Origin: Ignavibacteria bacterium
GTDB taxonomy: Bacteria; Bacteroidota; Ignavibacteria; Kapaibacteriales; UBA2268
Length of the DNA: 46,437 nucleotides
Assembly: GCA_026416955.1 (NCBI GenBank)
Contig: JAOAEE010000025.1
Span: forward strand, 1 to 46,437
Direction: 5' to 3'
A program made the position numbers and the translations under genes. Under the pieces are notes generated by a model. It had not been told where the DNA came from and made no database searches. It saw only the letters and a list, made by a program, of their open reading frames with translations. This document shows positions 21 through 30,592 of the stretch, piece after piece; position 1 is the first letter of the stretch; every line of letters starts with the position of its first letter.

Positions 21-260
21 ATGCCGGAACCGTTGTGTTCACAAAAGTCTCCTTATCAAATTAAGTTAATTAATGGCAAATATTTTTGGTGTGCTTGTGG
101 GGAATCGAAAGCCCAACCCTTTTGCGACGGCTCGCACAAAGTAAAAAGAGAATTTACTCCCCTTCCTTTCGAATTGCCAGAAGCAAAAACAGTTTGGCTT
201 TGTGCTTGCAAAAGAACTTCAAATCCCCCATTTTGCGATGGCACACACAAAAAATTGTAA
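21..260 (+). CDS. Dual CDGSH iron-sulfur protein (79 aa)
   Basis: Small soluble protein with two complete CDGSH-type [2Fe-2S] ligand sets. Cys24, Cys26, Cys35 and His39 lie in CACGESKAQPFCDGSH, and Cys61, Cys63, Cys72 and His76 in CACKRTSNPPFCDGTH. The three-Cys one-His pattern is diagnostic of the family, which binds redox-active clusters and can pass on electrons or clusters; the partner cannot be told from sequence. I chose the ATG at 21 over the TTG at 9 because GGAGGG at 11-16 is a good ribosome binding site that would fall inside the longer reading. Only 2 bases separate the stop from mnmE, so the two are probably co-transcribed. Family assignment is secure, role unknown. Confidence 0.9.
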   Translation: MPEPLCSQKSPYQIKLINGKYFWCACGESKAQPFCDGSHKVKREFTPLPFELPEAKTVWLCACKRTSNPPFCDGTHKKL

Positions 261-262
261 CT

Positions 263-1612
263 ATGGCTGAACCAATTGTGGCTCTTTCTACTCCGCCCGG
301 GATATCTGGTTTGGCAGTTGTTCGCCTCTCGGGCGAAAATGTATTTGATATTGTCGACAAATGTTTTATTGGGAAAGTTAAGATTTCAGAAGCAAAGACA
401 CATACAATTCACTACGGAGAATTTCGAAACAAAGACCGTCTTGTCGACTTCGTTACTGTTGCAGTGTTCCGAGAACCAAATTCTTACACTGGGGAAGATG
501 TTGCTGAAATCTCTTGCCACGGAGGCTACTTTGTCGCTGAATCGATAATTGAAACTCTAATAGAAAATGGCTGCCGGCTTGCCGAGCCGGGTGAATTCAC
601 AAAACGTGCATTTCTCAACGGTAAATTAGATTTAACCCAAGTCGAGGCTGTTGCCGACATCATCCACTCTTCATCAGTTTTGGGCTACCAAACAGCAGTG
701 CGACAGCTTTCTGGCGAGTTTAGTAAAAGAATTGCAGAATTAAAGAAGAAACTACTCGATGCAGCCGGCTTGCTTGAATTGGAACTGGACTTTGCCGACG
801 AAGGCTTCGAGTTCATCGACCGCTCGCTAATCCTTAAATCGATTGACGAAACAATTTCATATTGCGAGGATTTGGCAGCCTCGTACCATTCCTCCGAGAT
901 ACTTCGTTCGGGATTTTTTGTTGGTATCACTGGTTTCCCAAATTCGGGAAAATCAACATTATTTAATTCGCTATTAAAAAGAAAAAGGGCTATTGTTAGC
1001 GAAATCCCGGGAACAACAAGGGATTACCTCGAAGAATCGATTTATATCGATGGTGTTCCAGTTCGATTAATTGATACTGCTGGATTAAGAGAAACCGAGA
1101 ACACAATCGAAATCGAAGGAATAAAAATGGTCGAATCGCTATTGGCACAATCGAATTTAATACTTGTTATCAACGATTTGACCGCTGGACAATTTCACTC
1201 CGATGCTTTGTTCTTTGAGTTAACCGAGAGATACAAAACTTCGAAATTAATTTTAGTCCAAAACAAAAAAGACCTTGTAGAAGTTATTCCACCAAAAAGA
1301 GAATTTGAACTTTTTATTTCTGCGAAACACAATCTTGGATTGGAACAGATATATGAACTTTTCCGGAAAGAAATCCGAAGCGAAACAGAGCATATCAAAG
1401 ACTTTTTAGTTAACCAAAGGCATTATATATTGCTAAAGCGAGCAGCCGAGGAATTGAAAAAATCGCGGCAAAGTTTATTGGAAAATTATGGGAACGAACT
1501 TGTTGCCGACGATTTGCGCAAGGCTGTCAAAACACTCGGCGAAATTGTTGGCGATACATTCAGCCAAGATGTTTTGAATAATATTTTTTCTAAATTTTGC
1601 ATTGGTAAATAA
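263..1612 (+). CDS. mnmE: tRNA modification GTPase MnmE (449 aa)
   Basis: MnmE acts with MnmG to install the carboxymethylaminomethyl (or related) group on wobble U34 of certain tRNAs, using a formyl-THF-binding N-domain and a potassium-dependent GTPase domain set inside a helical domain. All landmarks are present: G1 GFPNSGKS at residues 224-231, TTRD at 251-254, DTAG at 271-274, NKKD at 334-337, and the invariant C-terminal FCIGK with the catalytic Cys. The ATG at 263 begins MAEPIVALSTPPG, the usual MnmE start, and gives a normal length; the longer in-frame reading would overlap the CDGSH gene. MnmG is not in the window. A parS site follows 3 bases after the stop. mnmE commonly lies near the origin in bacteria, consistent with the replication signals described here. 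Confidence 0.98.
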   Translation: MAEPIVALSTPPGISGLAVVRLSGENVFDIVDKCFIGKVKISEAKTHTIHYGEFRNKDRLVDFVTVAVFREPNSYTGEDVAEISCHGGYFVAESIIETLIENGCRLAEPGEFTKRAFLNGKLDLTQVEAVADIIHSSSVLGYQTAVRQLSGEFSKRIAELKKKLLDAAGLLELELDFADEGFEFIDRSLILKSIDETISYCEDLAASYHSSEILRSGFFVGITGFPNSGKSTLFNSLLKRKRAIVSEIPGTTRDYLEESIYIDGVPVRLIDTAGLRETENTIEIEGIKMVESLLAQSNLILVINDLTAGQFHSDALFFELTERYKTSKLILVQNKKDLVEVIPPKREFELFISAKHNLGLEQIYELFRKEIRSETEHIKDFLVNQRHYILLKRAAEELKKSRQSLLENYGNELVADDLRKAVKTLGEIVGDTFSQDVLNNIFSKFCIGK

Positions 1613-1651: not shown

Positions 1652-2497
1652 ATGGAACATTACGACATTGCTGTTGCATACAGAATCTATCCCGGAATTG
1701 GAAAACCACTCGCAATCTTTAATAACGACAAATTAAAACTTGTCGAGTTTGCCTTTAAATCTTTCCTCTATTCTCTTGGTAATCTAAAAATTTCTTTGTT
1801 CGTGATACTTGATACTTGCCCACAAAAGTATAAGGAAATAGTACTTTCTAATGCTCCAACGGCAAAAATTATCGAACTTAATAAGGCTGGCAATTTTAAA
1901 ACTTTCGAAATGCAAATCGAACTACTCTTAAGCCAAACAGCAAGCGATGTTGTTTATTTTGCCGAAGACGATTATTGCTACCTTCCAAACGCTCTCGAAA
2001 CGGCACTAAATTTCTTCCTTGCGCAAAAACCTAATTTCCTCACTCTCTACTACCACCCCGACTATCTTAATTGGGAAATTCATAATTTGTCTGAAAAACA
2101 AGAAATTGCTTTCCAAGACATTTTGTGGCAAAAAGTAGGTTCAACTACTCTTACTTTTCTTACTAATAAGGAAAATTTACAGAAGGCAAAGAAGGTATTT
2201 TTAACCTTTGGGAAAAAGAATTACGATTCCTCTCTTTGGTTTTCTTTGACTAAACTTGGGGTTTTTAACCCAAAATTTCCATTGCTTCCATTCGTGTCGA
2301 AAAGGAAAAAATTTTATACTAAGATGATTGGCAAAATGTTAATCTACAATCTAAAACAAACACTGTTTGGTCCGCAATTCTCTCTCTTTGCTCCCATACC
2401 TTCGCTTGCCACTCATTTGGAAAAAGATTCTCTCGCACCAAACATTCAATGGAACAGTTACTTTAACGAATTAATCAAAAAACTGAATATTGATTAA
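1652..2497 (+). CDS. Glycosyltransferase-like protein (GT-A fold, 281 aa)
   Basis: Soluble protein with no signal peptide or membrane segment. The early part (residues about 5-100) alternates strands and helices as in GT-A nucleotide-sugar transferases and ends in VVYFAEDDYCYLP near residues 93-105, where the acidic EDD could be the metal-binding DxD-type motif. The rest is rich in aromatic and basic residues and matches nothing I recognise. Its start codon is 20 bases after the parS palindrome, and a 126-base gap separates it from the TPR gene, so it may be a single-gene unit or read through from mnmE. The glycosyltransferase call is an inference from fold pattern and one motif; the substrate is unknown. 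Confidence 0.5.
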   Translation: MEHYDIAVAYRIYPGIGKPLAIFNNDKLKLVEFAFKSFLYSLGNLKISLFVILDTCPQKYKEIVLSNAPTAKIIELNKAGNFKTFEMQIELLLSQTASDVVYFAEDDYCYLPNALETALNFFLAQKPNFLTLYYHPDYLNWEIHNLSEKQEIAFQDILWQKVGSTTLTFLTNKENLQKAKKVFLTFGKKNYDSSLWFSLTKLGVFNPKFPLLPFVSKRKKFYTKMIGKMLIYNLKQTLFGPQFSLFAPIPSLATHLEKDSLAPNIQWNSYFNELIKKLNID

Positions 2498-2623
2498 TTC
2501 TTTAAAATCGTACTTACGCATATTAAGCAAATACTCTTAAAAAAGTTTGTATTTTATTTTCGCTTATATTCATTTGAACAAAGGCAAAGTTCCAACTGCT
2601 ATTTAATTCGTATTTTTGCATTT

Positions 2624-9348: not shown

Positions 9349-9762
9349 ATGAATATTGTGATGAACTTGCTTTTTTTGGTAAATGGTAATTCGAGCAATA
9401 TCTTCAAGGCACATAACCTTAATCCCGAAGTATTTGAAATTGTTAAAATTGACGAAAAAGTACTTGCCAAACCCAGGAGTATTTTGGAATACACTCGGAA
9501 GAAGTTCGAAAGCATATATTTCGGTTGCATTTCTATCGATTTTCAGCGTTTCATTCCTTTTATGCTTATATACATTCTCCTTTCCAAATGCAAAAAAGGT
9601 GGAGTAATCGACGAAGATGGCAAAAAGGTAAGGTTTTCTATACCCAAGACCTTATTTTTTACAATTCCTATGTTAATTTTTGAGTTTATAGCAAGTATAT
9701 TCATAGTAATTTTTTCTTATGTATACTACTTTGTATGGTGGAAATTCAAAACGAAAAATTAA
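9349..9762 (+). CDS. Small hypothetical membrane protein (137 aa)
   Basis: Unrecognised. The first two thirds are soluble and mixed; one long hydrophobic stretch near residues 104-131 (TLFFTIPMLIFEFIASIFIV onward) forms one or two C-terminal membrane helices ending in the basic WWKFKTKN. Another weakly hydrophobic patch lies at about 68-80. The last 28 bases overlap the GT4 gene downstream, which suggests coupled translation and a shared job in glycoconjugate synthesis. The start could be the ATG at 9349 or at 9361. A TACTTTTG at 9299-9306 resembles a Bacteroidota -7 element, but I found no matching -33 TTTG. Existence as a gene rests on the overlap arrangement and normal codon use. Confidence 0.6.
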   Translation: MNIVMNLLFLVNGNSSNIFKAHNLNPEVFEIVKIDEKVLAKPRSILEYTRKKFESIYFGCISIDFQRFIPFMLIYILLSKCKKGGVIDEDGKKVRFSIPKTLFFTIPMLIFEFIASIFIVIFSYVYYFVWWKFKTKN

Positions 9763-10943
9763 GAATTGCCTTCTGGCGAATCGACTATGCTGGAGCCTTA
9801 GTTGACGCTGGCATTAATAGCACAATAAGAGGCTTAATTACAGAATTAGTAAAAAGCGGGCACAAGGTTTTCCATATTTCTGGGAGTAGGGCAAAATTGC
9901 CAAACGAAGTCGAATCTTTCCACATTCCTTTTAGCAAAATTTTTAGAAACTTTCCAGAAGTGTTTTCTTTTCCATACCAATTCAAATCGGTTTCTTTGGG
10001 GAAAAGGATAATAAAAAATCTCGAACCTATAAATTTTATTTACCAAGTTATCCACGACTTTAATTTTTCTGGTGCCGTCGTAAGAAAGAACCTTGGTATC
10101 CCCTTGTTTCTTCAAGCCGATGGAATTCAAGTTTGGGTCAAACAAAACTGGGGCAAACTTTATTTCAAGTCCCTACTTCGATGGGCAGAAGAAATTCAAT
10201 GGTCGTTTGCCGATAAGATTTTTACTTTCTCCTCGCAATTAAGGGAGCAGTTGAAATCCTACGGAGTACCAGAAACAAAAATCGTAATCAATCCTTGCGG
10301 TTTCAACCCCGAGGTTTTCCATCCAAACATTGATTGCAAGGAAATCATAAATCAACTTAACATTGCAAACAAATTTGTTGTCGGATTTTCGGGCACTTTC
10401 GGATATTACCACGGAATTTCCTTCCTTGCTAAGTCGATTAAAATGGTTGCAAAGGCAATTCCAAATGTAGTATTTCTATTTGTAGGCGATGGTTCCTATC
10501 GGGCACAATTAGATGAAATCATTAAGCAAGATAATGTTGAAAAATTTACAATTATCACTGGTTTCGTACCTTTCGAAGATGTCCCGAAGTATCTTTCTTG
10601 CTGCGATGTTTTAGTTTCCCCTTGTATCAACAACGACGATGGAACAGAATTCTTCAATAGCCCATTGAAAAATTTCGAGTATATGGGACTAAGAAAACCA
10701 ATAATCGCTACTGCTGTTGGTCAACAAAAGGAGATTTTTAAACATCGTTGGAGTGCTCTATTAGTCGAAGAACGCAACCCAGAAGCAATTGCAGAAGCGA
10801 TTATCGAACTTTACAACAATCCCGACCTATCTGCAACCATTGCAATCAATGCATTCAACGAGGGAATTTCGAAACATACTTGGCGACATAGAGCGGAAAA
10901 TTTGTTAAATTCTTACTTCGAATTAATCAATTCTAAAATATAA
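9735..10943 (+). CDS. Glycosyltransferase family 4 protein (402 aa)
   Basis: GT-B fold retaining glycosyltransferase. The N-terminal half starts LRIAFWRIDYAGALVDAGIN with the glycine-rich acceptor-side loop. The C-terminal half has the donor-binding features FVVGFSGTFGYYHGISFL, VFLFVGDGSYR, ITGFVPFEDVPKYLSCCDVLVSP and a Glu-containing NSPLKNFEYMGLRKPIIAT, equivalent to the E-x7-E region of GT4 enzymes. No membrane segment, so it is cytoplasmic. It starts inside the preceding small membrane protein gene and is followed 43 bases later by a radical SAM gene; the three may build or modify a surface or lipid-linked glycan. The sugar donor and acceptor cannot be read from sequence. Confidence 0.85.
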   Translation: MVEIQNEKLRIAFWRIDYAGALVDAGINSTIRGLITELVKSGHKVFHISGSRAKLPNEVESFHIPFSKIFRNFPEVFSFPYQFKSVSLGKRIIKNLEPINFIYQVIHDFNFSGAVVRKNLGIPLFLQADGIQVWVKQNWGKLYFKSLLRWAEEIQWSFADKIFTFSSQLREQLKSYGVPETKIVINPCGFNPEVFHPNIDCKEIINQLNIANKFVVGFSGTFGYYHGISFLAKSIKMVAKAIPNVVFLFVGDGSYRAQLDEIIKQDNVEKFTIITGFVPFEDVPKYLSCCDVLVSPCINNDDGTEFFNSPLKNFEYMGLRKPIIATAVGQQKEIFKHRWSALLVEERNPEAIAEAIIELYNNPDLSATIAINAFNEGISKHTWRHRAENLLNSYFELINSKI

Positions 10944-10986
10944 CTACATATTTTGCGTAATTTATCTTACAAGATTTGGAGGAACT

Positions 10987-12261
10987 ATGGATTTAGGTTT
11001 TTCTCCACAAAATCTCTTTCGTTTACCTTGGAACCTTGCCGACAATGCTATTTCTTGGTTAGAACCTACTTATGCTTGCAATTTATACTGTGATGGTTGC
11101 TATCGGGAAAATCGAAAAGCATCGCACAAGTCTCTCGAAGAAATTAGTCGCGAATTGGATTTATTCGCTCGCCTTCGTAAATCGGATAGTATTTCAATCG
11201 CTGGGGGCGACCCTCTTGTCCACCCACAAATTGTTGAAATTGTTCGTATGATAAGAAAGAAAGGGTGGAAACCCGTCATCAACACCAATGGTCAAGCTCT
11301 TACCAAAGAATTACTCCTCAAATTAAAAGAGGCTGGTGTTTGGGGCTTTACTTTTCATATTGATAGCTACCAAAACCGTCCTCATTGGAAAGGGAAAAAT
11401 GAATTGGAATTGAACGAGTTGCGTCTTTATTACGCAAAAATGCTCGCAGAAGTTGGTGGTATTACTTGCTCCTTCAACGCTACTGTCTATCCCGAAACGA
11501 TTAGATATGTTCCCGAACTTGTTCGTTGGGCACAAGAACATATCGATATCGTCCACATTATGGTCTTTATAATTTATAGAATCGCAACTCTCGATGGCTT
11601 GTACGATTACTACATTGGCAATCAAAAAGTAAATTTCGACAATATTACTTATGTCCGCGAAACAGAAACTCGCCGCACAGATGTCAAATCCGAAGAACTT
11701 GTTGCCGAAATTAGGAAAATTTATCCCGACTTTATGCCTTGTGCTTTTTTAAATGGAACACATCTTCCCGATTCCTACAAATGGCTGCTTACGGGAAGGC
11801 TTGGGAATCGACACCAAATTTTTGGCTACGTTGGTCCAAAATTTATGGAACTTGTCCAAAATGTAAATCATTTTGTTACTGGAACTTACCTTGCATATTC
11901 AAATCCAAAAGCACAACGAAGAGGTTTGTTGTATTTCCTTCTTGCTCCTTTCGACAAAGGCGTAAGGCAAGCAGCAAAGAACTATTTTAAATCACTTTTT
12001 AGTAATCCAAAAGCCTTTTTCAGCAAAGTTCATTATCAGTCAATTATGATTATCCAACCAATCGATATTTTACCAGACGGCGAGACAAATATGTGCGATG
12101 GGTGCCCAGACATCACTGTTTGGAAGGACCGTTTCGTTTGGTCTTGTCGGATGGAAGAGCAATTGAAATGGGGTCAGCAAGCGCGAGTTGTACCAAAAAA
12201 TTTAGAATTTTCTATTTTTGGGGACAATTCTTTTCAAAACCAAGCCAATACAGTTAAATGA
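10987..12261 (+). CDS. Radical SAM protein with extra C-terminal Cys cluster (424 aa)
   Basis: The canonical 4Fe-4S/SAM motif CNLYCDGC (Cys31, Cys35, Cys38) is followed by AGGDP at 72-76, a variant of the SAM-binding GGEP motif, and by TNGQ strands of the partial TIM barrel. A second Cys group near the C-terminus, Cys370, Cys373 and Cys387 in MCDGCPDITVW...SC, could hold an auxiliary cluster as in SPASM/twitch enzymes, or zinc. GGAGG lies 4 bases before the ATG. The SW-x-EPTYACN opening recalls radical SAM enzymes acting on lipids or peptides, but the substrate cannot be assigned. It ends the plus-strand block, 45 bases before a hairpin. Confidence 0.85.
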   Translation: MDLGFSPQNLFRLPWNLADNAISWLEPTYACNLYCDGCYRENRKASHKSLEEISRELDLFARLRKSDSISIAGGDPLVHPQIVEIVRMIRKKGWKPVINTNGQALTKELLLKLKEAGVWGFTFHIDSYQNRPHWKGKNELELNELRLYYAKMLAEVGGITCSFNATVYPETIRYVPELVRWAQEHIDIVHIMVFIIYRIATLDGLYDYYIGNQKVNFDNITYVRETETRRTDVKSEELVAEIRKIYPDFMPCAFLNGTHLPDSYKWLLTGRLGNRHQIFGYVGPKFMELVQNVNHFVTGTYLAYSNPKAQRRGLLYFLLAPFDKGVRQAAKNYFKSLFSNPKAFFSKVHYQSIMIIQPIDILPDGETNMCDGCPDITVWKDRFVWSCRMEEQLKWGQQARVVPKNLEFSIFGDNSFQNQANTVK

Positions 12262-24994: not shown

Positions 24995-26713
24995 TTAAAC
25001 CAGTTCTGTATTTTCCTTCACTGGAAGTACGATTGTAAAGGTAGAGCCAACACCAACAAGACTTTCGACTTCGATTGTCCCACCGAAGCTTTTGATAATA
25101 TTGTAACTAACGGATAGTCCAAGTCCAGTTCCTTTTCCAACGGGTTTAGTAGTGTAAAACGGAAGGAAAATCTTTTCCATTTGCTCTTTCGAAATTCCGC
25201 TACCGGTATCTTTAACCGAAATTAAAATGTTTCTGTCTTTTTGATTAGTAGTAATTGTGATTTTTCCGGGCGGGACTATTGCGTCTCTTGCATTGGTGAG
25301 TAAATTAACAACAACTTGCTTTAAAGAGTTTGGGTCGACAAGAGCTTTTGGCAAATCTGGTTGGAGGTTGACTTCGAGTTTGATGTTGGAAACATAAAGT
25401 TCTCTGTCGACAAAACCTTCGACTAATTCCTTGATAATTGCATTAACATCGTAATAATCCAATTTAATGTCGTCTTTGCGAACGAAAGTTAGAAGTTTGC
25501 GGGTAATATCCCTTGCCCGAAAAGCACTATTTTGGATGTTATCCAAATGTGGAATTAGGTCTTCGAATGTAACAAATTGGCCGAATTCAGGGTTTATCAA
25601 GTCTTTTATCAAACCGGCTTCGCTAGCAATAATAGCAAGAGGGTTGTTGATTTCGTGTGCGATACCAGCGGCAAGTTCACCAACAGCGACAAGTTTACTG
25701 GCGTGTTCCAATTGTAGGCGTGCGATATTTTTTTCTCGTTCGGCAATTTCCTTTTCGCGTTCGTATTGCACTATCTTCTTGGCTCTTAAATAAATTACTA
25801 CAAGAAACAGAATAAATGTTCCAATCGAAAGAAGAGTTGATGTTTGGCTAATACTAAGAGCAACATAAGTTTCTGGTGTTTGCGAAAAACAAATAACGCA
25901 CCAATCTTTTATATCGAGCCAACAAAAACCATAGGAATGTCTTTTGTTTTTAATGTGAGTAGTTAAAACCCCAGACTTTGGCTTCCTTGGAGGCGAGAAT
26001 TTCGATAAACTGTTTTCCTTGCCTAATTGAGTTTTATATAGATACTTATATTTATTATCAATCAAAGCAATGATTACATTTTCTTTCTTTATCTTGGAAG
26101 AAAGAAGCTCGTTGATAGAGGATAAATCAATATGAGAGCGAAGGAAAATCAATTTGTTTTCGAAGTACCCTTTTATGGTAATAGCAAAAGCATTGTAACT
26201 AGGGGTAAATAAAGGTTCGGAGAAAAAGTATTTTCCAGTGTCTGCAATGGATTTCAAAGGACTTACATTATCGAATTTCGTAGAAAGCAAATTCAAAGAT
26301 GATGAATTGGCATAGGAAATAATTTTGCCCGATGTATCAATTATTGCAATATCAAGGAAGTGGGGGGATTGTGTTTTTAAATGTTTCAAAACTAAGCTTG
26401 TGTTCTCGTTGTTAATTTTTTTAAAGTTAGATAATTCATTAAGGATAAGGAACAAGTCGTTTACTCTTTCCTCAAGATAGTGCTCCAATTCTTCGCACTT
26501 TGTAACAGCCCTTAAATGGAGATTATTTTGAAGATTTTCTTTCTGGTTTTTATAGTATTCGATTTGGAGTAGAACAATCAAAATCAACAAGGGTAGGATA
26601 TAAGTAACAGCAAGGCGAACAAATTCCTTTTTGAAAAGTATTTTATACTTTTTCTCGTCGAGTTCTGGTTCGTTTTTCGATTTATTATGTGATTCAAAAA
26701 AACTTAATTTCAT
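24995..26713 (-). CDS. Membrane sensor histidine kinase (572 aa)
   Basis: Transmembrane helix at about 34-52, an extracytoplasmic sensor region of about 235 residues with Cache-like features (DIAIIDTSGKIISYANSSS), a second helix at about 293-310 and a cytoplasmic coiled coil. HisKA follows with phospho-acceptor His353 in GELAAGIAHEINNPLA, then a HATPase domain with NLLTNARDAI (N box), DTGSGIS (G1) and GKGTGLGLS (G2). This matches NtrB/DctB-type kinases that sense small molecules outside the cell. It is the last kinase/regulator gene of the operon with the two receiver-domain proteins, and is their likely phosphodonor. There is no DNA-binding regulator in the operon, so the output is probably transport activity or a partner elsewhere. 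Confidence 0.93.
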   Translation of the reverse strand: MKLSFFESHNKSKNEPELDEKKYKILFKKEFVRLAVTYILPLLILIVLLQIEYYKNQKENLQNNLHLRAVTKCEELEHYLEERVNDLFLILNELSNFKKINNENTSLVLKHLKTQSPHFLDIAIIDTSGKIISYANSSSLNLLSTKFDNVSPLKSIADTGKYFFSEPLFTPSYNAFAITIKGYFENKLIFLRSHIDLSSINELLSSKIKKENVIIALIDNKYKYLYKTQLGKENSLSKFSPPRKPKSGVLTTHIKNKRHSYGFCWLDIKDWCVICFSQTPETYVALSISQTSTLLSIGTFILFLVVIYLRAKKIVQYEREKEIAEREKNIARLQLEHASKLVAVGELAAGIAHEINNPLAIIASEAGLIKDLINPEFGQFVTFEDLIPHLDNIQNSAFRARDITRKLLTFVRKDDIKLDYYDVNAIIKELVEGFVDRELYVSNIKLEVNLQPDLPKALVDPNSLKQVVVNLLTNARDAIVPPGKITITTNQKDRNILISVKDTGSGISKEQMEKIFLPFYTTKPVGKGTGLGLSVSYNIIKSFGGTIEVESLVGVGSTFTIVLPVKENTELV

Positions 26714-26757: not shown

Positions 26758-27159
26758 TTACCTATTTGGGTCGAAAATGTTTTGCTGAACCAATTTATAT
26801 GCTTCGAACAATAAACGAACAAGTTCTTCAAATTCATAGGGCTTAGGCAAGTATGCATAAGCCCCAAGTTTAAGGCATTCATTTGCAGTTTCGTCCGAGC
26901 CGTGACCAGTTAGAATTAATACTTCGATATTTCGTTGGTTCGATTTCAAGTATTCAAGTATTTGTTTTCCGTCGACATCTGGCATTTTTAAATCGACAAT
27001 AGCTAGGTCGTAGTTCTTGTAACTTGCCAACTGAATAGCAGTAGTTCCCGATGGAGCTTTATCCACTTCGAAGCCACGAAGTTCAAGTCGCTTTGCGATA
27101 GAATCAAGAAAATGTATTTCGTCGTCTACGACTAAAATTTTTATTTTGTTCTCCGACAT
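26758..27159 (-). CDS. Stand-alone response-regulator receiver domain (133 aa)
   Basis: A single REC domain with no output domain. The acidic pair is in LVVDDE, phospho-acceptor Asp56 in DLAIVDLKMPD, Thr84 in LTGHG and Lys106 in YLPKPYEF, all intact. It closely resembles the receiver at the start of the upstream transporter gene (shared LRGF, DLKMPD, LTGHG, and matching spacing), so the two look like duplicates. Its ATG directly abuts the stop of that gene (TAAATG on the minus strand), implying strict co-expression. It could serve as phosphate sink, shuttle or competitor for the kinase encoded 44 bases downstream. Confidence 0.93.
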   Translation of the reverse strand: MSENKIKILVVDDEIHFLDSIAKRLELRGFEVDKAPSGTTAIQLASYKNYDLAIVDLKMPDVDGKQILEYLKSNQRNIEVLILTGHGSDETANECLKLGAYAYLPKPYEFEELVRLLFEAYKLVQQNIFDPNR

Positions 27160-28926
27160 TTAAAATCCAATTAGGGGCCAATAAATCGAAACAACCAATG
27201 CATAGATGAAAACACAAGAAAAAGACCTTAACAGAGAAACTTTAAGGAAGTCCATTTGCGAGAAGTAGCCAGTGCTGTAGGAAATCAAAGTCGGTGGGCA
27301 CCCAATCACAAGCCAGACAAAAGTTGTTGCTGCTGGAAGTATCAAAGCAATGTGTTTGACGTTAATGCCCAAGGTTTGTGCCAAAGGCAACATAATTGGC
27401 AAGCAAAGTGCTGTTGCTGCTGTATTGGACATAAAACTTGTGATAAAGGAGCCAAAAATTCCAATGCCAAAATATTGAATAAGTTTACTCTGACCTATTA
27501 ACAATGGAGCAAATTGGTCGGCAAGCCATTTCCCAGCGCCCGTGTCGAGCATTGCAGTTCCCAAAGAAACACCAGCACCAAAGACCAACCAAGCTTCCCA
27601 AGGAAACTTGCTTGTAATTGTCTTGAATTTCACATATCCCAAACCACATATTAAAGCAAGAGCAAGAGCAGAAACCACGCTTACGTGTAGTTTAGTAATA
27701 TCGCCAACTGCCCAAAGAATGAAGCATATAGCAAAGATGATAGCTACTCCCTTTTCCTTTTTGCTCATCGGGGGTAATTTAGTTTGGATTTCAAACGGAA
27801 TTTCTTTCATTCTTGGTGGAAACATTAAATATATTACCAAGTAAGTAGTTAGAGAGAGAAAAATAACAGTTGGAAATTGGCAGACCATATACTCGACGAA
27901 ACCAATGTGGACGCCAGTGTATTTTTCGAGAAAATCGACAGCAACTGGATTTCGTCCACCACCAAGGATTGTTCCGTGGCCGCCAGCACCAGCGCTCAAA
28001 GGAATAAGAATTGTAAAGAATTTCGATAGATTATTGCTATTCTGTGGGGTTATATTTAATTTGTGGAAAACTGGCATCATCGAGAATAGAAAGATGATTG
28101 TAATAGTTGCATCGTGGAATACAGTGGACAAAAGAGAAGAAACAACGCAAAGAAACAAGGAAAAAGGTATTAGTTTGCGTCCACCCATTTTTAAGATGCC
28201 AACAAGAATTCGATTTGTTAGACCAACTTCGTTAATAATAACACCAAACATAATAATCATCATAACAAACATAACTGCGGGCGAAGCAAAAGGGACCCAC
28301 GCAGCTTCTGGTTTCTGAATATTAAGTATAACAAGACCAGCACCGACAAGTAAAGCGGTAATACCAATCGGAATTACCTCGCTTACCCAAAGAATAACTA
28401 CAGTCATAAGAAAAGCAAGGAAACGATGTCCTTGGGGCGAAAGGCCTTCGGGCGTTGGCAACAGATAGATAATCAACCCAACCCCAAAAGCAAGTACTAA
28501 TTGAAAGATGATAGATTTTGTGGATTTGGCTCCCTTCTCCTCGTGTTCCGCAATAAGGAACTTTGCTTTGGTACGAGCGTTGTTGAGAACATCGACAAGT
28601 TTTTCGATATCTACTGGTTTTTGCAAGTAATTGAAAGCGTCCAATTTAGCCATTTGGGTTGCGCTTTCTGTATCGCCGTGACCAGTAAGAATAACTACTT
28701 GGACTTCGGGGCGAGTGGCTTTAATTCTCTTCAAAACATCTTCACCGCTGATATCGGGCATTTTTAGGTCGAGAAGCACAACGTCGATTGCCTTGTCCTT
28801 TGTAATTAATTGTTCAACATCTTTCCCCGAGGTTCTTGTAACCACATCGAAACCACGCAACTTAAGTTGTTCCGAAATGCTGTTTAGAAAAAGTTCTTCG
28901 TCGTCGATAATTAATAATTTGCTCAT
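27160..28926 (-). CDS. Receiver domain fused to SLC13/DASS-type anion transporter (588 aa)
   Basis: Residues 1-120 are a complete receiver domain (Asp53 in LLDLKMPD, Thr81 in LTGHG, Lys103 in YLQKP). After a charged linker (about 121-135) comes a 12-helix-like permease. Its SLC13/DASS features are GHGTILGGGRNPVAV (318-330), SFMSNTAATALCLPIMLP with the second SNT motif at 500-502, and GYFSQMDFLKV near the C-terminus. The first SNT motif of the family appears replaced by HDAT at 271-274, so ion or substrate specificity may differ from Na/dicarboxylate carriers. The frame is uninterrupted, so this is a true fusion. It sits 2 bases after the CBS gene and directly before a second receiver. Phosphorylation of Asp53 probably gates transport; that is inference. 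Confidence 0.88.
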   Translation of the reverse strand: MSKLLIIDDEELFLNSISEQLKLRGFDVVTRTSGKDVEQLITKDKAIDVVLLDLKMPDISGEDVLKRIKATRPEVQVVILTGHGDTESATQMAKLDAFNYLQKPVDIEKLVDVLNNARTKAKFLIAEHEEKGAKSTKSIIFQLVLAFGVGLIIYLLPTPEGLSPQGHRFLAFLMTVVILWVSEVIPIGITALLVGAGLVILNIQKPEAAWVPFASPAVMFVMMIIMFGVIINEVGLTNRILVGILKMGGRKLIPFSLFLCVVSSLLSTVFHDATITIIFLFSMMPVFHKLNITPQNSNNLSKFFTILIPLSAGAGGHGTILGGGRNPVAVDFLEKYTGVHIGFVEYMVCQFPTVIFLSLTTYLVIYLMFPPRMKEIPFEIQTKLPPMSKKEKGVAIIFAICFILWAVGDITKLHVSVVSALALALICGLGYVKFKTITSKFPWEAWLVFGAGVSLGTAMLDTGAGKWLADQFAPLLIGQSKLIQYFGIGIFGSFITSFMSNTAATALCLPIMLPLAQTLGINVKHIALILPAATTFVWLVIGCPPTLISYSTGYFSQMDFLKVSLLRSFSCVFIYALVVSIYWPLIGF

Positions 28927-28928
28927 AC

Positions 28929-29501
28929 TTAGTCTCCATTTTTATTTAACTTTCCACATTCGGTCAAGATGCAGTTTTCAATTTCATTTATTAAATCGGA
29001 AGTTCTTAGAATACCAACCACTTCGTTCCCGCGTTTAACTAGGACAGAAAGGCATTGCCACATAAGTATTTTATGGATAGCAAGGGGAAGTGTCTCGTCT
29101 TCGTCGACGCTTTCTTCAACGGACTGCATAATATCTTCGACTTTGATTTTTGAAGCAAGGGAGCATAGATCTATAGTGGGTTCTTGCCAAAGAGAAAATT
29201 TTTCGAAAAGAGTTTCGATAAAATCTGGACTAAGGCTGACACGGGAAAGTTTGTCAATATCGAAAAGGTCTTTGTATTTTGGCTCCAACCCCTTTAGAAA
29301 AGCAAAGTGCCCGACTTTACCTATTACCTTATTGTTTTCGTCCAAAACCAAAACAGCCCTATATTGCGGAACATTAGGTGGGGCATTTTTTACCGCTTCA
29401 TTCAAACGAACAATAGCATCCAACATCGAGGCGCCTTTTCGGATAGTTGGATACATTTCGATAGGAACCATAATGTCTTTAACTTTCTTTTGGCTAATCA
29501 T
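28929..29501 (-). CDS. CBS-pair domain protein (190 aa)
   Basis: Two CBS motifs: one after VKDIMVP near the start, with AVLVLDENNKVIGKVGHFAFLKG, and one after VEDIMQS, with CLSVLVKRGNEVVGILRTSDLINEI. CBS pairs bind adenine nucleotides or SAM and often regulate transporters and channels. A long central insertion (about residues 70-120) lies between the halves. It is the first gene of the operon and is followed 2 bases later by the receiver-transporter fusion, so an energy-state input to transport is a reasonable inference. No DNA-binding or catalytic domain is attached. Confidence 0.88.
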   Translation of the reverse strand: MISQKKVKDIMVPIEMYPTIRKGASMLDAIVRLNEAVKNAPPNVPQYRAVLVLDENNKVIGKVGHFAFLKGLEPKYKDLFDIDKLSRVSLSPDFIETLFEKFSLWQEPTIDLCSLASKIKVEDIMQSVEESVDEDETLPLAIHKILMWQCLSVLVKRGNEVVGILRTSDLINEIENCILTECGKLNKNGD

Positions 29502-29662: not shown

Positions 29663-30592
29663 ATGAGTATTAAATTTTTACCACCTTTTGGTGTTTTGTT
29701 TTGTTTTTTGAGTTTCGTTTTGTTTAGTTCACATTTGAACTGTAAATCATACTTAGCAAACGAGAGCAACTTAAGAATCGAATCGGATACATCGTTGCAA
29801 ATAAGTACAAGCCAATTTTACAAGTTTGTTTTAGTCGACGATAGCGAGATAATTGGTAGATTGGACAGTACTAAAAACGATATTCACTACGTTTCGACAC
29901 AAACGGGGATAGTTATCCCAATTCCAAAGGACAAAATCAAGAAAATAGTGAAATTGCGAGGAGAGTTTATCGAAGGCAAGTTTTGGAGGTACGACCCAAA
30001 TCGAACCCGACTTTTGTTCGCCCCAAACGGAAGAGCACTTGAAGGTGGAGAAGGTTATTTTTCTGTTTATCAAATATTTTTCCCTATGGTAACTTATGGA
30101 GTAACAAATTTTTTGGCATTAAGTGGTGGGGTAAGTCTTTTCCCGGGGCTCGAGAAACAATTGGTCTATGGGAATATAAAAGTAGTACCATACCAAGCCG
30201 AGAAATTCAGCATTGCTGTTGGAGGTTTTATTACAACGGGGTTCGAGGAATTCACTGGTGGAATACTTTATTCTTGTGCTACCTATGGAACAAACAACAA
30301 TTCCATTACTGTCGGGGTGGGGCTTCCGTACGAAGAGTGGAAGACCGGCAAAAGCCCAATTATACTTCTTGGCGGGGATGTACGCATTTCGAACAGTTTG
30401 AAGTTCATAACAGAAAACTGGATTGTAACAAGTAGTTACAAGGAGTTTGTTTTTTCTGCAGGTATTCGATGGTTCGAAGAGCGATTAAGCGCCGATTTTG
30501 GTTTCGTGTCAACTTTAGAATTGATAAAAAGTTCTTCTGGGCTTCCAGCAATTCCTTGGATTGGTTTTGCTTACAATTTTAAGTTAAAATAG
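29663..30592 (+). CDS. Hypothetical exported envelope protein, beta-rich (309 aa)
   Basis: Signal sequence at about residues 5-27 (FGVLFCFLSFVLFSSHLNC). The Cys at its end could be a lipobox Cys, though the context is not strong. An N-terminal SH3-like stretch (FVLVDDSEIIGRLDSTKNDI) is followed by strands with Gly and aromatic alternation (GVTNFLALSGGVSLFPG, FSIAVGGFITTGFEEFTGG) ending in GFAYNFKLK, as in small outer-membrane barrels. Family not recognised. It is divergent from the CBS-led operon and stands alone, 125 bases before ileS. Confidence 0.65.
   Translation: MSIKFLPPFGVLFCFLSFVLFSSHLNCKSYLANESNLRIESDTSLQISTSQFYKFVLVDDSEIIGRLDSTKNDIHYVSTQTGIVIPIPKDKIKKIVKLRGEFIEGKFWRYDPNRTRLLFAPNGRALEGGEGYFSVYQIFFPMVTYGVTNFLALSGGVSLFPGLEKQLVYGNIKVVPYQAEKFSIAVGGFITTGFEEFTGGILYSCATYGTNNNSITVGVGLPYEEWKTGKSPIILLGGDVRISNSLKFITENWIVTSSYKEFVFSAGIRWFEERLSADFGFVSTLELIKSSSGLPAIPWIGFAYNFKLK

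Follow-up and report, generated by a model that had tools for sequence, protein, structure and literature searches.

Clusters that join DASS transporter genes to two-component and CBS-domain genes are already known from Desulfobacteraceae and, in total, from 26 sulfate reducers; the DASS sulfate transporters there are described as formed abundantly and constitutively, and WalR-type transcriptional control is proposed for them (PMC11887813). Two other groups of proteins come close in architecture: CbrA-type SLC5-STAC histidine kinases, which also hold a carrier and a two-component module in one chain (PMC13022988, PMC7096432), and receivers fused to metabolic enzymes, where a receiver likewise sits directly on a working protein (PMC5847659). 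Here we describe a gene that places a response-regulator receiver (REC) on a carrier of the SLC13/DASS type. It lies in a 46,437-nucleotide stretch of DNA from an Ignavibacteria bacterium (contig JAOAEE010000025.1; hereafter the window), and its surroundings resemble the clusters of PMC11887813 in that DASS, Cache-type kinase, receiver and CBS genes stand together in a probable sulfate reducer. Unlike in those clusters, receiver and carrier form a single covalent chain, and the organism belongs to another phylum; and whereas WalR-type transcriptional control was inferred there, the free regulator here is a 133-aa protein consisting of a receiver only. CbrA carries a kinase, the input side, on an SLC5 carrier, whereas our protein carries a receiver, the output side, on an SLC13 carrier, so that information should run from the kinase to transport. 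It differs from the receiver–enzyme fusions of PMC5847659 in having a secondary transporter as its working part. With clusters of DASS, CBS and two-component genes in sulfate reducers already published, the covalent receiver–carrier fusion is the new part, and no new class of system is claimed. We found no description of a receiver–SLC13 fusion in the open-licence PMC literature, which agrees with the initial annotation, where the architecture was not recognised as described; domain databases (InterPro) or reviews may list it.

The initial annotation had read this region as one unbroken frame encoding a receiver and a carrier, and a 588-aa open reading frame with both Pfam domains bears this out (Table 1). 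The coding strand is the minus strand, the plus-strand reading of 27160-28926 containing many stops. The phospho-acceptor residues that the annotation had singled out, Asp53, Thr81 and Lys103, are intact: D8, D9, D53, T81 and K103 are invariant in all six aligned fusions of the window's kind, which we call type A, and by eye the same set is present in 11 fused receivers. The receiver is conserved to the same degree as the carrier in these six proteins, with mean pairwise identities of 73% and 71%, respectively, and it is predicted to accept phosphate from a kinase. For the carrier, Na+-coupled transport of a divalent anion is the predicted function. The fusion scores 186 bits against NCBIfam TIGR00785 (dass), below the curated cut-off of 198.6, and is therefore assigned to Pfam Na_sulph_symp and placed outside the TIGR00785 subfamily. 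A PHROGs search matched the receiver only, and Pfam finds no SPX, RCK_C, kinase, SLC5 or STAC domain in the protein.

Table 1. Features of the REC-DASS operon and its divergent neighbour in the window
Feature	Coordinates	Strand	Description
REC-DASS fusion gene	28926 to 27160	-	ATG start, one open frame, 588 aa: receiver, helical linker and SLC13-type carrier
Receiver (REC) domain	28585..28914	-	Residues 5-114; PF00072 (Response_reg) 89 bits, cut-off 30.2; D8 D9 D53 T81 K103
Juxtamembrane helix	28522..28608	-	Residues about 107-135; last helix of the receiver, extended
DASS/SLC13 carrier domain	27166..28509	-	Residues 140-587; PF00939 (Na_sulph_symp) 156.4 bits, cut-off 27; profile 4-470 of 472
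CBS-domain protein	28929..29501	-	190 aa; heads the operon; PF00571 35.5 bits
Stand-alone receiver	26758..27159	-	133 aa; PF00072 96.9 bits; first base directly after the fusion's stop codon
Membrane sensor histidine kinase	24995..26713	-	572 aa; HisKA and HATPase_c over cut-off; Cache-like sensor
Divergent neighbour	29663-30592	+	309 aa; transcribed away from the operon; matches nothing in Pfam or NCBIfam at 0.001

An AlphaFold2 model built on a 24-row alignment (mean pLDDT 84.4, pTM 0.73) shows the receiver, a helix at 107-128, a second helix at 136-155 and a carrier that begins at 136. Foldseek relates the receiver part to structure 3jte, and its best carrier matches are VcINDY (E 6.5e-16), NaDC3, the plastid DiT1 of plants, NaS1 and Pho90; matches 1-39 are all structures of the SLC13/DASS type and match 40 is ArsB, indicating an INDY-like fold. 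Carriers of the DASS family work as dimeric elevators whose N-terminus lies in the cytoplasm, and receivers commonly dimerise or dock when phosphorylated. The two S-N-T motifs of DASS carriers are a signature of the binding site. The second is retained, as SNT in the window protein and as SNS or SNA in relatives, and the position of the first is occupied by H271-D272-A273, a replacement shared by all 17 clade proteins that were aligned. What had been annotated as a full permease with DASS motifs can therefore stand as regards the whole-carrier Pfam match, the fold and the second motif, but not as regards the first. Among SLC13/DASS carriers such as VcINDY, human NaS1, LaINDY and yeast Pho90, with which it shares the fold, Na_sulph_symp and the second S-N-T, the fusion is set apart by H-D-A in place of the first motif, by its N-terminal receiver and by having neither SPX nor RCK_C. 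Pho90 carries SPX, and some DASS proteins carry RCK_C.

The joint between the two domains is itself conserved. Residues A117, K120, A121, L124, I125 and E127 of the linker are invariant in the six aligned type-A fusions (a further copy, in G328, deviates by eye at positions 121 and 127), and linker length is near-constant, two copies (L011 and L012) differing by an additional residue ahead of TM1 and one fewer behind it. A joint spaced in this way would be appropriate for a signalling helix.

On the minus strand the CBS gene is followed after 2 nt by the fusion, after 0 nt by the stand-alone receiver and after another 44 nt by the histidine kinase. Pfam detects no family besides PF00072, and no output domain, in the stand-alone receiver, and no DNA-binding or enzymatic output domain in any of the operon's regulators. 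The Cache-like sensor of the kinase matches dCache_1 at 34.4 bits in the window, under the cut-off of 45, and at 45.5 bits in G320. The nearest paralogue of the fused receiver in its own genome is the adjoining stand-alone receiver (45% identity, E 1e-24; the next is at 9e-14). The order CBS, REC-DASS, response regulator (RR), histidine kinase (HK) persists in relatives with fusions at 58-77% identity, with an extra 438-aa open reading frame between RR and kinase in G328. Every fusion with readable upstream sequence is preceded by a CBS gene, except that of G595 (the type-A copy of G320 being unreadable there), and a stand-alone receiver adjoins every fusion whose downstream side was read. Promoter-like sites number 18 against 12.9 expected (sd 3.2), and terminator-like sites 3 against 4.2.

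Searches of related genomes detected the fusion in 11 genomes overall, as type A, type B or both. Type A is present in nine genomes of the window's family in the Kapabacteria (G000, G313, G314, G315, G320, G328, G331, G344 and G346), one of them assembled as a complete chromosome (CP058732); in the G320 copy the receiver half is partly masked by a stretch of N. This recurrence means that the fusion is neither a chance event nor a frame error, and it disposes of the annotation's own counter-reading of two separate genes. An assembly artefact that joined two genes, for which the unfused RR gene of G548, 18 nt ahead of a DASS gene, might be cited, can be dismissed for the same reason.

A search for related loci by short peptide patterns, which favours close relatives, returned 17. 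Five are fused, four of them titled Kapabacteria or Kapaibacterium and the fifth (L010) the Bacteroidetes/Chlorobi bin MS-B_bin-24, and all five show the operon order given above, the sequence of L012 ending inside the RR. These five (L009, L010, L011, L012 and L013) have the same dsrA places and scores as genomes G313, G315, G331, G344 and G314 and are counted once. The other 12 loci (L014-L025) hold a carrier 50-56% identical to the window's, unfused in 11 and, in L018, beginning at a contig edge and so outside that count. A CBS gene lies immediately upstream of the carrier in 7 of the 12; RR and kinase genes lie downstream of the unfused carrier in L021 and L023, and an RR gene lies near the contig end in L022. 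No RR match was found in the loci of the unfused carriers L014-L016, L019, L020 and L024. In L014, a Rhodocyclaceae contig, a Usp gene (PF00582 in two stretches; 1700-2569, plus strand) replaces CBS directly 5' of the unfused DASS gene, and by eye the upstream genes of L015 and L016 resemble it.

Wider sampling covered 119 relatives, 24 of which have a DASS match at E 1e-12, and three phylum draws with the window protein as query: 296 genomes of the window's phylum (100 matched at 1e-20), 297 of the phylum of a Desulfomicrobium locus (79 at 1e-30) and 299 of that of a Rhodocyclaceae locus (86 at 1e-30). With no more than four candidates scored per genome, the draws yielded no new full-length fusion; because G595 was in the Desulfomicrobium-phylum draw and was nevertheless missed by this query, these zeros are no evidence of absence. 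A phmmer check of 169 DASS open reading frames in 164 loci gave receiver matches on 28 rows; several of these rows repeat the same gene with another locus id, and the row for L002 is a 25-residue fragment at a slice edge. By phmmer there is no receiver in the 1021-aa frame of G462 or in the 562-617-aa frames of G469, G442 and G633.

Type B comprises REC-DASS proteins of 695-697 aa in two genomes of the window's family, G320 and G322, again in the order CBS, REC-DASS, RR, HK. Their carrier is about 28% identical to that of type A and has about 100 extra residues after the first TM helix. When a type-B query was run against the phylum of the Desulfomicrobium locus, 22 of 247 genomes matched at 1e-45, two of them across the receiver. 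G595 encodes a 692-aa type-B fusion (PF00072 92 bits, PF00939 137 bits) with an RR and then a kinase downstream, preceded by a REC-kinase fusion instead of CBS and with an RR-CBS fusion farther on. G548 has the parts as two separate genes: CBS is followed by a 122-aa receiver whose end lies 18 nt ahead of the DASS gene, and after DASS come kinase and RR. In G588, G439 and G590 unfused type-B carriers stand amid kinases and short receiver proteins. The DASS group Cii of PMC5840216 spans 474-691 aa, and its longest member might be a type-B fusion; the available text of that paper does not mention the terms response regulator, CBS, two-component, histidine kinase, fused or TrkA.

Two further arrangements deserve mention in their own right. 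In G320 the type-B kinase is followed by a second CBS gene and a plain DASS gene 28% identical to the window's (L091, 2645-6439, minus strand), so that one carrier module directly follows another. In L155, three clustered DASS genes are accompanied by a receiver-CBS fusion (225-1133, minus strand) and a receiver-Cache-histidine kinase fusion (9454-11499, minus strand), which indicates that the parts of the module recombine.

In a quick DASS tree of 58 rows with SH-aLRT support (rows under 300 aa or under 60 bits were left out, and any X letters stripped), type-A and type-B fusions fall in well separated, non-sister clades, each with unfused relatives. In the receiver tree, from which distant own-genome receivers on long branches (L003-L006 and L008) were left out, a branch with support 87/97 (not starred) has all 11 fused receivers to one side, and the free receivers from their operons stand separately (98/98). 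In an earlier tree with 10 fused rows, which left out receivers containing X and hence the type-A fusion of G320, the corresponding branch had 88/90. Related receivers on two unlike carriers would imply either two fusions or one fusion followed by an exchange of carriers, a conclusion we hold with moderate confidence. The separate receiver beside DASS in G548 does not group with the fused ones, so that it need not represent the split ancestor of the fusions. Within the type-A clade (99) there is also an unfused carrier on a long branch, in G316, a genome of the window's genus that has no dsrA; no CBS, RR or HK gene was found in the 10.5 kb read around it, and its placement makes loss of the receiver the simplest reading.

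The metabolic setting points to sulfate. The window genome carries sat, aprB, aprA, qmoC, dsrA and dsrB in one run, and its organism is probably a dissimilatory sulfate reducer. The Kapabacteria family UBA2268 has been placed among organisms with a reductive Dsr pathway (PMC10591310); a study of Thermonerobacter, whose bin MS-B_bin-24 (RCNO) corresponds to L010 (G315, the window's genus), reported that the transcript of a 'predicted sulfate transporter' tracked sulfur-metabolism genes (PMC6338057). In all 18 genomes with a close DASS relative, the window genome included, dsrA is over cut-off, whereas 14 control genomes gave eight weak matches and none over cut-off. Among the 119 relatives, dsrA is present in 14, and a fusion of either type was detected in 10 of these and in none of the other 105 (Fisher p 9e-12, relatedness ignored); the dsrA genomes without a detected fusion, which weigh against the link, are G332, G337 (84% complete), G354 and G359. 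In a search for other sulfate transporters that covered the SulP family, none of the 9 type-A genomes gave a match, against 4 of the 5 remaining dsrA genomes (p 0.005, relatedness ignored). The window genome has two Na_sulph_symp genes: besides the fusion there is a shorter gene on C11. Taken together, the association with dsrA and the absence of SulP matches from type-A genomes suggest that REC-DASS probably imports sulfate for dissimilatory reduction, and that this uptake would be gated by phosphorylation. The carrier is not general among organisms with dsr genes: in the family draw around the Rhodocyclaceae locus, dsrA was over cut-off in 25 of 91 genomes and a close carrier at 1e-90 was found in one, the centre genome. 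Separately, an 84-aa open reading frame in L142 (11146-11400, minus strand), between dsrB and a cobB-like gene, occupies the dsrD position in Thermonerobacter; it has no Pfam match at 0.001 and one sub-threshold match at 10, and with none over cut-off we do not name it DsrD.

We propose that the fusion is the main importer of sulfate, a divalent inorganic anion, in sulfate-reducing Kapabacteria and carries its own phospho-switch, a proposal we consider reasonably probable as a whole. The adjoining Cache-type kinase would sense an extracellular cue, perhaps sulfate itself, and pass phosphate to Asp53 of the fused receiver and also to the stand-alone receiver. Through its elongated last helix, which heads to TM1, the fused receiver would then alter carrier activity, shifting or braking the elevator with an effect in either direction. 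The stand-alone receiver may serve as a phosphate sink or be another docking partner, free to diffuse, and the CBS protein may supply a second input reporting the energy or adenylate state of the cell; PMC11887813 speculates that CBS proteins are adenylate/APS sensors reading APS/ATP. The same source describes the DASS transporters as constitutively abundant, which fits control of activity better than control of expression. Domains, operon, phospho-site conservation, the dsr link and the failure to find SulP are established at the level of sequence. The initial annotation's idea of direct phospho-control of transport gains support from the kinase and receiver in the operon, the equal conservation of both domains, the two carrier lineages and the lack of a DNA-binding domain, and gating as such stays a prediction; it is the substrate, the acting kinase and this gating that we infer. 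That annotation overlooked which strand is coding, and likewise the operon, its setting in a sulfate reducer, the loss of the first S-N-T and the DASS/CBS/two-component clusters already in print (PMC11887813).

The substrate is one point of doubt. DASS carriers also move dicarboxylates, and the presence of a second DASS gene in the window genome likewise counts against our proposal. If the carrier handled another anion (a dicarboxylate, thiosulfate, sulfite or molybdate), or exported its substrate, the dsrA link would reflect lifestyle only. The missing first S-N-T motif fits that reading, as do the many anions carried by DASS members (PMC5840216) and the relatives in Rhodocyclaceae. These last, with their close unfused carriers, count against our proposal, since import would be odd there; we take these bacteria to be, probably, sulfur oxidisers. 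We nevertheless regard a different anion or export as unlikely, given dsrA in 18 of 18 close-relative genomes, the reciprocal pattern with SulP and the abundant sulfate transporters that DASS proteins form in comparable sulfate-reducer clusters, a likeness drawn from the descriptions in PMC11887813.

Two further readings keep sulfate but change what the receiver does. The flow might be reversed, with the carrier sensing sulfate, by binding or moving it, and its receiver modulating the kinase or, as a phosphate sink, the stand-alone receiver, the output lying elsewhere in the cell. Transporter-type sensors such as CbrA are known (PMC13022988), a stand-alone receiver adjoins each fusion with its downstream side read, and H-D-A in place of the first motif in 17 aligned proteins could mean altered transport. 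Yet a receiver is an output-side domain, the operon shows no DNA-binding or enzymatic output, SulP, the one family searched, was not found in type-A genomes, and close unfused relatives occur in loci with no RR match; we think this reading improbable. Alternatively, the receiver could be a passive tether or phosphate sink that recruits the kinase or buffers phosphate, with regulation being transcriptional. This would agree with the WalR-type regulators proposed to control transporter formation (PMC11887813) and with a DASS cluster, in L156, that also holds a regulator of 453 aa, long enough that DNA could be its target. It sits poorly with the window operon, where the sole other regulator is 133 aa of receiver alone, with a near-constant helical joint whose several invariant residues suit mechanical coupling, and with the retention of the receiver on two DASS lineages, and we give it a slim chance.

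Direct phospho-control of the importer, the reading we prefer, would matter beyond this locus. A receiver on the carrier would let energy-costly sulfate uptake be switched at once to match supply, and the kinase with the fused carrier offers a two-protein system for direct measurement of phospho-control in a secondary transporter. The fusion also hints at a role for the free single-domain receivers in the DASS clusters of sulfate reducers, as a natural indication that such receivers act directly on the carrier. A broader version, held tentatively and at somewhat less than even chances, is that in dissimilatory sulfur organisms generally, receivers dock on DASS carriers, whether as free proteins or fused to them, and adjust the influx of sulfate at once by phosphorylation, the Kapabacteria fusion being the covalent form of a widespread non-covalent RR-DASS complex. 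If so, two-component systems there would control transporter activity and not DNA, a mode of signalling so far unrecognised.

DASS carriers occur in other fused frames as well. In L136 (1477-4110, minus strand) a DASS carrier (192 bits) is preceded, in the same frame, by a radical SAM domain (PF04055 at 31.2 bits against a cut-off of 29.5), and the frame in L138 resembles it by eye. Counting L136, 55 match rows of the Rhodocyclaceae-phylum draw have frames of 834-939 aa, all but L136 judged by length.
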